This document shows positions 15,585-61,130 of a DNA stretch of 64,000 bases, piece by piece. The notes below the pieces were generated by a model that worked only from the letters and a program-made list of their open reading frames with translations, did no database searches and was not told the DNA's origin. The DNA comes from Ulota crispa (taxonomy: Eukaryota; Streptophyta; Bryopsida; Orthotrichales; Orthotrichaceae). Within the stretch, counting starts at the first letter, position 1; each line of letters opens with the position of its first letter. Location: positions 558,001-622,000 of the forward strand of contig OY987247.1 of the NCBI GenBank assembly GCA_963920765.1. Reading direction: 5' to 3'. Made by a program: the position numbers and the translations under genes.

Positions 15585-16545
15585 TTAACCCCTAAAGGAC
15601 CAAGTGGTTGTTCAACATCCACTTCAAAACTCAAGTAGGGTCATATGGAGTCAATTTTTATTATATGTTCTGAGAATTGTTAAACAAGGTGCAAATATGT
15701 ATCCTCCAAGTGGAAATCTAGTTTTTTCCCCCAATTGGATGCCCAGTTCAAAAGTTATGTTGCCCAAAAGATAATGGGCAATTTGGGCAATTTGAGCATC
15801 TTTGGAGAAAGTTATGCTAAAACTCTCATTAACTTTTGAAAATTGGCAAATATGTAACTAAAAAAATATGGTGTACAATTGTCAAAATAAAATAAAAAAA
15901 GCGCTCACATCACATTTTGAAGGGAGTCAAACTTTGTTATCTATGTTCGGGCAGTTTCAAGAAAAAAAATTCCTCTAACTTCAAGCCCTGTTATCTTTCA
16001 ATTTATGGATCCAAAGCTCTTGAATTTTTTTTTCACATATTCCTAAAGTTTGTCTCCAACATTTTACCATTTGGATTTCAAATAAAAGACTTCCTCATTG
16101 CACAAGAAATCATGAAAAAATGACTAATGTATTGCCAATTCAATAAACCTCCTTGTATTGGAGGGTGATTTAGAATAAGCTAGACTCTATATTTGCATCT
16201 GAAAATTTTCATGAGTGAACCTAACATCATATACTTGTGAATGGTCACAAATCTCAAATTTGTGTAGAGTAAAAATTTTACTCCAGGAAGGCTCAAAGTT
16301 TGTTGACCTTATTTTGCAAAAAGGAAAAAAGTTGTTTTTCTCACTTCAAACGTTATAATCTTACAATCCATGTAGTCAAATGGGCTGAAATTTTTTACAC
16401 ATGTTGGTTTATTGGTTTTACAAAATTTTGTCTAGTTGAATTTGAGGAAAAAAAGTTTTTTATTTCTGATTTTGGGCAACGCACTAAAAGTTGACAGTTT
16501 CTGAGATTTTTTCTCAAAAAACACCCTTGGTCCTTTAGGGGTTAA
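15585..16545. mobile_element. TTAA piggyBac-like MITE, perfect 16-bp inverted ends
   Basis: TTAA at 15585-15588 and 16542-16545. Both termini, read inward, are CCCCTAAAGGACCAAG, a perfect 16-bp match. The interior differs from the 935-bp family, so this is a separate family sharing the ends. Plus-strand frames at 15917-16123 and 16300-16494 lie inside and do not resemble a transposase. Confidence 0.85.
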
Positions 16546-20869: not shown

Positions 20870-21077
20870 TTTTACTTAGGTTGTCTTTCCCTAAAACGTG
20901 CCTTAACCTAAAAAGTTAGCTCATGACTCATTACTCGGCCACTTGGGGGCGCAAGCAACTCTCTAGCTCTAAATACACTGGTGTTTGGGTAAGGTCAACC
21001 TTTGTAAAAGCAATGATTGGATAAGATCATAGCCCCACTCCCCTTTAGTCCAAAGCATGTATTATGAGCTTGGTTAA

Positions 21078-21659
21078 CCCCTAAAGGATGTTGCCTACCA
21101 AAAGTGTTGGATGTTTTTGTACAAGGACCGTTTAGTTCTTGAAGAAATGACTTCGTGACAAATGTCAAAAATTCCCCAAAATATCCTAATTGATTGGTAG
21201 TACGTTTATGACTTGACTTTAAATTTACAGCTTCAAGGGGATTCATGTGCTACCCAAAATATTCATTTGTATACAATATAGTGGTGCTTGGTTAGCATCA
21301 ACACTTTGGGCTAGCAAAAAGTATTGACCTTATCCAAGCATTGATCATAAACAAACACTCCACTTGTGTTACCTTTCCTAGTTCTAGTGGTTCCAACTTT
21401 GGAGGTGTTTCCTCACCCATGTTTTTGGTACACTAACCAAACGCCTTTCTAACTAATGAGTCAAAATGGGCATTGATGAAAAGAAAATGTTGACCATATG
21501 CAAGCACTTGACCTTAACCAAGCTCATCAAACATGCTTTGGGCAAAAGGAGAGTGGGGTTGTGATCTTATCCAATTTTTGCTCTTACAAAGGTTGACACT
21601 AACCAAGCACCATTGTATAGGAGAGCATACACGCACAATACATCAATATCCTTTAGGGA
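21078..21659. mobile_element. TTAA piggyBac-like element with an internal empty-site control
   Basis: Begins CCCCTAAAGGAT, ends ATCCTTTAGGGA. TTAA stands directly outside on both sides (21074-21077 and 21660-21663). The interrupted host reads 'gagcttgg' TTAA ... TTAA 'ggtcaagtgcttgc'; the uninterrupted relative at 21500-21525 (minus strand) reads 'gagcttgg' TTAA 'ggtcaagtgcttgc' with only one TTAA. This is direct evidence of a 4-bp TTAA duplication. The element carries a copy of its own host sequence (21277-21625) inverted inside it. Confidence 0.9.
21277..21625 (-). mobile_element. intact CTTGGTTA-type element inside the TTAA element
   Basis: Carries 'gtggtgcttggttagcatca' at the left and, inverted, 'caatggtgcttggttagtg' at the right. 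Aligns along its length with the disrupted copy at 20977-21900, in the opposite orientation. It gives the empty-site sequence for the TTAA insertion. Confidence 0.75.
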
Positions 21660-22105
21660 TTAAGGTCAAGTGCTTGCATATGGTCAACATTTTCTTTTCA
21701 TCAATGCCCATTTTTACTCATCAGTTAGAAAGACATTTGGTTAGTGTACCAAAAACATGGGTGGGGAAACACCTCCAAAGTTGTAAGCACCAAAATTAGG
21801 GAAAGTAATGCAAATGAGGTATTTGGTTATGATCAATGCTTGGATAAGGCCAACACTTTTTTCTAGCCCAAAATGTTGACCTTAACCAAGCGCCATTGTA
21901 CTAAGATTTCACATAGTTTCTGACTTGAACGCCACTACTTTGTTTTTTGACATCTTTGTTCTTGTTCCCATATCCTTTAAAAAATGTTTATTGCAATGAT
22001 TATTGATAAAAATTATTATAAAATTCAGTAAGTATCTATACAGTGTAAATTGTGAAGAAATTAGTGTTAGGCAACCTAAACACAATACTCAGTGTAGGTT
22101 TCAAT

Positions 22106-23878: not shown

Positions 23879-24526
23879 TAACCCCTAAGTGCTTGAGGCA
23901 CTTTTTGAGCTTCTAGAAATTTGTTCTATGTTGAACAAAAAGCCAAAATTTTGATAAGCCATATTAGTTTTTTTTAAAGCTGTAACTATACAAAATCAAA
24001 CCAAGTATGTTAGAGATCACATAGGAAAAGAAATCACAACAATATCATTTACACATTGAAAATTTACATTATTTGATCAAGAGGGTGTTAAAACTATGAA
24101 AATGACTTGAAGTCTTTCAATCCTCTTTTCACATGTTAAATCTAAAAAATAATCACATGAAAAATATGAGGTTAAAAGACACAACATACATAACCCTAAT
24201 CAATTTATGGCTTTTCAAAATCTCCTTTGCATTTTTTTAAAATGAAATTCTAGTGTAAATTTTGCTCCAAGGTTTGGTGTATTTGAGGCTCATTTCTAAG
24301 AGCTCTCAACACTAATAAAGTATAGATTGCAATTGATACCCTTGCTCAAAAGAATAGAAAAATCATAGTTAATCATTTACAAATCGATTTTTTGATACTA
24401 AAACTAGACTTTGAAAAGAATATTTAAAAAATAAAATCTAGTAAAGATAGCAACATTGTTAGGTTTTATAGAAATTTAAAGTATTGTCAACACCATAATG
24501 TGGTGCCTTGGGCATTTAGGGGTTAA
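23879..24526. mobile_element. piggyBac-like MITE sharing a TTAA with its neighbour
   Basis: Left end CTAA then CCCCTAAGTGCTTGAGGCAC; right end, inverted, CCCCTAAATGCCCAAGGCAC, followed by TTAA at 24523-24526. That TTAA is also the left flank of the next element. Confidence 0.7.
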
Positions 24527-33190: not shown

Positions 33191-33925
33191 CGTCGTACCT
33201 TTCATGATTCCACGAGTGCAGAGATTGAGTGTTGGTTGTTCCGGTACAACGGTAGTTGTTGGTGGTTGATCGCAGGGCAGCTCGAAGCTGTGTCCAACGC
33301 TCACTTAAACTTACTCACTCACTCCTCAAAGCACACGTTGTCAACGCTCCACCTAATCGCTCACACCATAGCCGCTACTTAGTTTGCATTTTGTTTCTAT
33401 TCTCACAAGACACACTCAAACCTTCGGGTTGCAATCAGTAGTAGCTGGGGAGCTTGACGATCGAGCGGCATGTGCGATGATGATCAAACGCGATTACAAT
33501 GGTTGTCGTAGAAATGGCGGGCAGGCGCTTGTCGTGGCGAACCCGTAGCATCTCTCCCACCACCACCACCACCACACAAGGACAGCCGTGAGGTGACCGT
33601 TCTCTGCTCACGCTTCTTACTTTTCGTGCCTGCATTTCTTTGCACGCAATGCCTGCAACCAATGTCACTCACCTTGCATGTTCTCGACGACCATGTCTAC
33701 TTCTCGATGCCATATTTACAGAGCATGCCCTTGATTTTGGTAGGTTTGTTGTTGTCGTTGTTGCAGATGTTGTTGTTTCAATTTGCAGCGATGGGAGACG
33801 AGCTCGCGGGAGCGCAGGGCCGTACGAAGAGTAGTAGTAGTCGACGATGACAATTAGAGAGCCTTGAACGGGGGTTTCAGGGGGTTTACATTTTGGTGTG
33901 CATTGTGGTGACGACGATGGGCGCC

Positions 33926-38654
<4,729 letters not shown>

Positions 38655-59423: not shown

Positions 59424-60355
59424 TTAACCCCTAAAGGACCATTGTCCCTTTGGGGGACAAGTTGGACTTCAGGCATGTACCTACAACTAAACTACTTTGT
59501 GTGATTTCTTGAAACTTTTACTGAAGGTGGGGAATTCAAAAATCTATGTGGACATCTAATTTTTCTTTCATTCTGACATTTGATGAAGAAGTTATGCATG
59601 AAATTATGAAAATTTGGGGAAGATTGCCCGCTTGGGCAGCTCAAAAACTACTTAAAAAATTAGATTTTTTTAAAATTAAAAATTGAAATTGGCTCTTTAG
59701 CACTTTTTATAGGTGAAAAGCTTTGAATGAGCCAATTCCAATCAATGACATGAAAGTTATGAGGTGTTTTTGTTTGCGGGCAGTTATGGATTCTCTACTC
59801 TAAAATAAACTTTGAAGTCCTTTATTTTACTCAATTTATTTTGAAAAAAAAAGTAAAACCATAGGAAGTAGATTGCTTATCACAACATTATAACTGTTAG
59901 GATTTGCATTTTTCATTTCAATAATTAAATTCTTTACAATTTAGTGTTTTGAATCATTCTCTACTTCTTTTACTTACTGATTTTTCCCATGTGTTGTATA
60001 ATTCCAATTGATTTGAAAATTCTCCCACACATACCTAGCTTGATCTCCTACATGGAAAAAATAAGTGCAACTTTGGGTAGAGCAATTTTTTTGTTATAAG
60101 AGTGGTCAAAGGCTTCTGAAATTTTTGGGCAACATGGAAAAAACTTTTTTTTTCACTTTAGATGTATACATCTCACTCCTCTCCCTCTAGAATGAGCTGA
60201 TTTTTTTTCCATAAGTACCTCTTCTAGTTTGGGGCAAGGTCCTACTATTAGATTTCCCAAAATCAAAACATAAAATCTCTTTTTACTAAACCTCCTAAAA
60301 GTGGCAATTGTTAGTGATTTTCACAAAGAAAAGGGTGTGGTCCTTTAGAGGTTAA
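59424..60355 (+). mobile_element. TTAA piggyBac-like MITE, ~935-bp family, complete
   Basis: TTAA at 59424-59427 and 60352-60355; ends CCCCTAAAGGACCATTG and (inverted) CCTCTAAAGGACCAC. 932 bp, collinear with 9748-10682. This is the best-preserved copy for defining the family. No long frame. Confidence 0.9.
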
Positions 60356-61050: not shown

Positions 61051-61130
61051 TTAACCCTTTAACAACCGCGCAACCATCAGATGGTTGATTTGCACTATAT
61101 TTTACATACATGCGGTAGTTAAAGGGTTAA
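61051..61130. mobile_element. 80-bp minimal TTAA element
   Basis: TTAA, CCCTTTAACAACCGC, about 40 bp, then the inverse of CCCTTTAACTACCGC, TTAA (61127-61130). Within it CAACCATC / GATGGTTG forms a second hairpin. It is the smallest element of this type in the window. Confidence 0.8.

Follow-up and report, generated by a model that had tools for sequence, protein, structure and literature searches.

The window, a 64-kb stretch of moss DNA, contains at positions 21078-21659 a 582-bp element whose inverted ends are enclosed by TTAA at 21074-21077 and 21660-21663. The left end reads CCCCTAAAGGATGTTG and the right end, taken as its reverse complement, TCCCTAAAGGATATTG; these 16-bp ends are identical at 14 of 16 positions, and the 20-nt arms that include the TTAA are 90% complementary. 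Approximately 343 bp of the element is a nested copy of a host repeat and the other 239 bp is non-coding. The host repeat (~345 bp, here named MITE2) is itself split by the element into two parts, 20973-21077 and 21660-21900. The features of the locus are as follows.

20973..21077, minus strand: left part of the interrupted MITE2, ending in the left TTAA (86% complementary to 21514-21618)
21074..21077, no strand: left TTAA target-site duplication (empty site with one TTAA)
21078..21093, plus strand: left terminal inverted repeat CCCCTAAAGGATGTTG (1,465 genome matches against 14 controls)
21078..21276, plus strand: first 199 bp of the 239-bp non-autonomous element, probably of piggyBac type (84.9% identity to consensus positions 1-199, 22 copies)
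21277..21619, plus strand: nested intact MITE2 inside the element, boundaries within a few bases (seen as an insertion relative to the 239-bp consensus)
21620..21659, plus strand: remaining end of the 239-bp element (consensus alignment)
21644..21659, minus strand: right terminal inverted repeat, TCCCTAAAGGATATTG on the minus strand (sequence, inverted-end comparison)
21660..21663, no strand: right TTAA target-site duplication (sequence)
21660..21900, minus strand: right part of the interrupted MITE2, starting with the right TTAA (88% complementary to 21277-21517)

When the host flanks were joined and one TTAA removed, they aligned without gaps to the intact MITE2 copy (the reverse complement of 21277-21619), which has a single TTAA. 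The original prediction, made from the sequence of the window, had described inverted ends with TTAA on both sides and an uninterrupted copy of the target with one TTAA in the same window, and had argued from the filled and empty sites for a 4-bp TTAA duplication. The inverted ends were borne out by the comparison above, and the uninterrupted copy and the argument built on it by the gapless alignment; to this we add that the empty-site copy sits inside the inserted element, nested within it.

The nested MITE2 matched 38 other places in the genome at 88-92% identity, a set drawn from 40 scored of 2,218 candidates found with a composite query. Seven other loci (L002-L008) carry MITE2 uninterrupted across the insertion point at 84-89% identity; the one junction read among them, that of L004, has ATAA in place of TTAA. 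The ends of MITE2 are close to TACARTGGTGCTTGG, and its flanks suggest a TA without a clear longer duplication. The locus is built of three layers: a host MITE2, a 239-bp element inserted into it, and a further MITE2 copy, in inverted orientation to the host copy, within that element. The nested MITE2 probably arrived after the insertion of the 239-bp element, since it is closer to its relatives (88-92%) than is the host copy (84-89%). A 571-bp form of the element at L002, on another contig, likewise holds a MITE2 copy, inserted in the same orientation. There the alignment to the 239-bp consensus is interrupted near position 207, as against near 199 in the window element, and the difference between these breakpoints suggests that the two nested insertions were separate events.

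All evidence presented here comes from one assembly (274.8 Mb, 157 contigs). With up to one mismatch, the terminal 16-mer was found 1,465 times in this assembly (706 + 759), against 14 matches (6 + 8) for the reversed pattern. This count is strong evidence for the element, unlike pair statistics confined to the window. There, at the strength chosen, seven inverted pairs flanked by TTAA were found against none in each of five block shuffles, and ten other 4-mers in the real window yielded 0 to 26 inverted pairs of the same strength; as the window contains other inverted repeats, this test proves little alone.

The consensus of the 239-bp element rests on 22 distinct copies, all complete and 236-264 bp long, drawn from the first 30 listed places of the terminal 16-mer, all of them zero-mismatch matches on contig C1. 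Exact TTAA is present on both sides in 15 of the 22 copies. One copy (L035) has CTAA on both sides, and in six (L010, L020, L021, L026, L027 and L031) the flank differs on one or both sides. The non-palindromic CTAA pair, together with the empty sites, argues for a duplication of 4 bp. At L023 two copies of the element lie head to tail with one TTAA common to both. At many other loci the element was found with TTAA and without a nested MITE2. Among the 30 end loci, longer end spacings (477 to 1,228 bp) represented insert-bearing copies or unrelated ends, and no transposase-bearing long form of the 239-bp element was found.

Further TTAA-flanked elements lie elsewhere in the window.

15585..16545, no strand: 961-bp element (length counted with both TTAA) whose ends are of the same type, 16/16 inverted, CCCCTAAAGGACCAAG
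59424..60355, no strand: another such element, 932 bp on the same count, with ends CCCCTAAAGGACCA / CCTCTAAAGGACCA (related empty site at 69%, gapped near the junction)
61051..61130, no strand: 80-bp TTAA-flanked element with ends CCCTTTAACAACCGC / CCCTTTAACTACCGC (related empty sites at 73%, with a 4-mer other than TTAA at the junction)

Exact TTAACCCCTAAA ends occur in the window as nine left ends (3269, 3439, 10857, 15585, 21074, 23110, 24523, 29573 and 59424) and four right ends (16545, 24526, 27371 and 43550). These ends continue differently, so several families are present in the window. At 24523-24526 one TTAA is common to two elements. A tblastn search of the 64-kb window with 21 transposase domains from the assembly (described below) revealed no transposase remnant.

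The window also includes an open reading frame at 36046-36549 with a plant zinc-cluster match just under the Pfam cut-off, within a region (33893-36549) whose pieces resemble a WRKY group IId gene. Outside the window, contig C157 carries rbcL and accD adjacent to one another and was taken as plastid; the protein encoded by its accD is closest (93%) to a cluster whose representative is the moss Timmiella anomala, followed at 85% by relatives among which are Sphagnum, Physcomitrella and the liverwort Pallavicinia, so that the plant is most likely a moss. At L098 (G000:C97) a plastid-like rbcL runs into a reading frame of non-plastid appearance, which may be an artefact of assembly or contamination.

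We compared the joined flanks of 33 elements with the available sequence of this assembly. Ten of the 33 matched across the junction; three of these were self-locus matches (one at L021, two at L023) and were dropped, leaving seven. Beside the window element, the clearest case is T057, a transposase-bearing element of 5,556 bp with stops, whose flanks align at 76-79% to two stretches of L029, in mutually opposite orientation, with one TTAA; one of these alignments has a 1-base gap directly before the TTAA. For L034, which belongs to the 239-bp family, the empty site lies in the window (79%, one TTAA). That of L032 reads TTGA, and the joined flanks of T043 aligned more weakly, with gaps near the junction.

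A profile search of the assembly for the piggyBac transposase domain (PF13843, DDE_Tnp_1_7) returned at least 120 matches, all above the cut-off (best E 1.3e-73); this is a lower bound and not a gene count, as 116 of 528 candidates were scored and some matches are pieces of one gene. No match was found in 14 control genomes, of which those named are bacteria and archaea and hence little informative. Internal stops occur in 110 of the 120 matches listed. In 21 translated domains the stops comprise 40 TAG, 27 TGA and 14 TAA codons (TAG and TGA together 67 of 81). Aspartate is present at four aligned motif positions in 19, 14, 19 and 17 of the 21 copies, positions which presumably include the catalytic ones, and a C-terminal cysteine motif was found in ten of the 21. 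Replacement of aspartate by asparagine at the aligned motif positions is frequent (12 of 84 cells across the 21 loci T039-T059). The predominance of TAG and TGA, together with the change of aspartate to asparagine, would fit decay of the transposases by C-to-T change.

An open transposase frame of 365 aa was found at L049 (PF13843, E 8.1e-63). This frame matched the solved piggyBat structure 9c0f (E 2.5e-20) and 6x67, named 'Transposase' (E 7.2e-19), which we take to be T. ni piggyBac. A protein search gave 42 relatives, all with precomputed PF13843; the best three of the 42 are 46-50% identical to the query, with a coverage of 96% or more, and their names are uninformative. The median pairwise identity of the 21 transposase domains is approximately 35%, and several transposase lineages are therefore present.

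The 21 transposase loci (T039-T059; the 20 best matches plus one) were scanned for TTAA-flanked inverted ends either side of the domain, with a score of at least 8 for a C-rich pair. C-rich TTAA pairs bracket the domain in seven of the 21 (T039, T040, T041, T042, T043, T044 and T057), defining elements of 5.0-6.0 kb, and no bracketing C-rich pair reached that score at the other 14. At T041 the C-rich pair is equalled by an A+T-rich one, and at T057 it is outscored by one. When TTAA was replaced by 14 other 4-mers, 0 to 5 of the 21 loci reached the bracket score. The top pairs shown for these 4-mers lack a C-rich start except for one TTTA pair (T058), which corresponds to a C-rich TTAA end displaced by one base. 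The ends of the bracketed elements begin CCCCTAAA, CCCCTAAG or CCCTT. T042 possesses a perfect 15-bp inverted repeat (15/15), CCCCTAAATGCCTAA, over 5,746 bp; with TTAA and up to one mismatch, its end gave 3,938 genome matches against 0 for the control, and the exact 12-mer TTAACCCCTAAA gave 30,972 against 77.

The window element shares its first 8 bp, CCCCTAAA, with the ends of T042 and T041. Its full 16-bp end, CCCCTAAAGGATGTTG, was found at none of the 21 transposase loci in a fuzzy search, in which end motifs alone matched, and its GGATGTTG continuation likewise at none of the 21; the nearest sequence is an unpaired CCCCTAAAGGATTGAG beside T056. Additionally, the interior of the 239-bp element gave no BLAST match to 20 of the 21 transposase loci, 11 of which were searched together with flanking sequence.

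We conclude, with a probability of about 0.93, that the moss element at 21078-21659 represents a 239-bp family of non-autonomous DNA transposons (MITEs) and that this family belongs to the piggyBac superfamily. The piggyBac label is well supported: the terminal inverted repeats start with a short C-run, as in the piggyBac superfamily, TTAA flanks the element, and PF13843 transposases lie between like ends elsewhere in the assembly. The piggyBac-type insertion of the original prediction is in this way upheld. That prediction had named two findings that would count against the label, a different duplication among the genomic copies and a closest transposase from another superfamily; the copies keep TTAA, exactly and on both sides in most of those aligned, and the bracketed transposases are piggyBac (PF13843). 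It had also looked to a genome search for such transposases, which the profile matches now supply, and for autonomous elements with the same ends. On this last point, C-rich ends bracket seven loci, and the longest stretch shared with the window element is the 8 bp at T042 and T041; the full 16-bp end was found at none of the 21.

This same absence, together with the unmatched interior, would be expected if the element belonged to another TTAA-using superfamily, or to an undescribed one, and its C-rich ends were convergent; Sola3, for instance, uses TTAA. Against this, piggyBac transposase elements of this very assembly have TTAA and C-rich ends, three of whose starts are given above, and one of them, T057, aligns to single-TTAA empty sites. 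We consider this explanation improbable. Far less probable still is that TTAA is a misreading of a 3-bp TWA duplication and the element a Tourist-like member of PIF/Harbinger. Domains of that superfamily are numerous in the assembly (at least 150 PF13359 matches), but a 3-bp reading puts the two ends out of register by one base, and L035 carries CTAA on both sides. No 3-bp TWA duplication was found, the duplication being 4 bp. The one locus examined of the at least 150 matches lacks a TTAA/C-rich bracket, which is a weak control.

It might also be argued that nothing was inserted, and that the host repeat was instead duplicated in inverted orientation, TTAA lying at the breakpoints by coincidence; the nested copy and the host repeat are indeed inverted to each other. 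The host repeat is, however, continuous in other copies, and the solo copies of the 239-bp element with TTAA at many loci refute this reading, to which we give almost no weight. For the piggyBac-type MITE, a piggyBac transposase from a 5-6-kb element with like ends would bind the inverted ends of the 239-bp element in trans, cut the element out and join it to TTAA.

piggyBac is best known from insects and other animals and is thought to excise without a scar. With the members of its superfamily, such as T. ni piggyBac and Myotis piggyBat, the elements described here share the duplicated TTAA, ends with a C-run and DDE_Tnp_1_7 transposases in the genome. They differ in that the window element has no coding sequence (239 bp once the nested repeat is set aside), that the host is a moss, and that 110 of the 120 listed transposase matches have internal stops. 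Animal and angiosperm MITEs with TTAA that have been attributed to piggyBac are likewise short and non-coding, with inverted ends; here, in contrast, transposase-bearing elements occur in the same genome and a related 12-mer end has 30,972 exact matches. Plant MITEs of the Tourist and Stowaway types are, as generally understood, alike in size class and copy number, but the element here has a 4-bp TTAA instead; Stowaway elements duplicate TA. Tourist duplications are given as TAA/TTA in a passage of one review (PMC10004981).

The original prediction had regarded piggyBac as little described in land plants, which needs softening. According to the same review, PiggyBac is one of seven MITE superfamilies recorded from angiosperms (PMC10004981), a table for the C-fern genome gives 1,230 PiggyBac pieces (PMC6890710), and piggyBac-like elements in plants are mentioned in passages of two papers (PMC8086355; PMC10004981). 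Plant engineering employs a piggyBac of moth origin, according to a 2023 review that also states that all plant DNA transposons leave an excision footprint (PMC10905368), and a passage from 2017 describes piggyBac as yet to be tried in Physcomitrella (PMC5505980). Among the matches listed in a literature search that reached few subscription journals, no account of native moss piggyBac elements was found. The window element is an addition to a known superfamily, in an uncommon host and on an uncommon scale.

More tentatively, and at somewhat less than even odds, mosses may carry a native piggyBac radiation of many lineages as a leading group of DNA transposons, with scar-free excision at TTAA occurring naturally now or until recently; as lower bounds in this assembly, PIF/Harbinger (PF13359) has at least 150 matches against at least 120 for piggyBac (PF13843). 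The finding bears on the distribution of piggyBac among land plants, where it is thinly documented. With its 120 or more transposase matches and 30,972 exact TTAACCCCTAAA ends, such a moss genome would be a native test system for scar-free excision.
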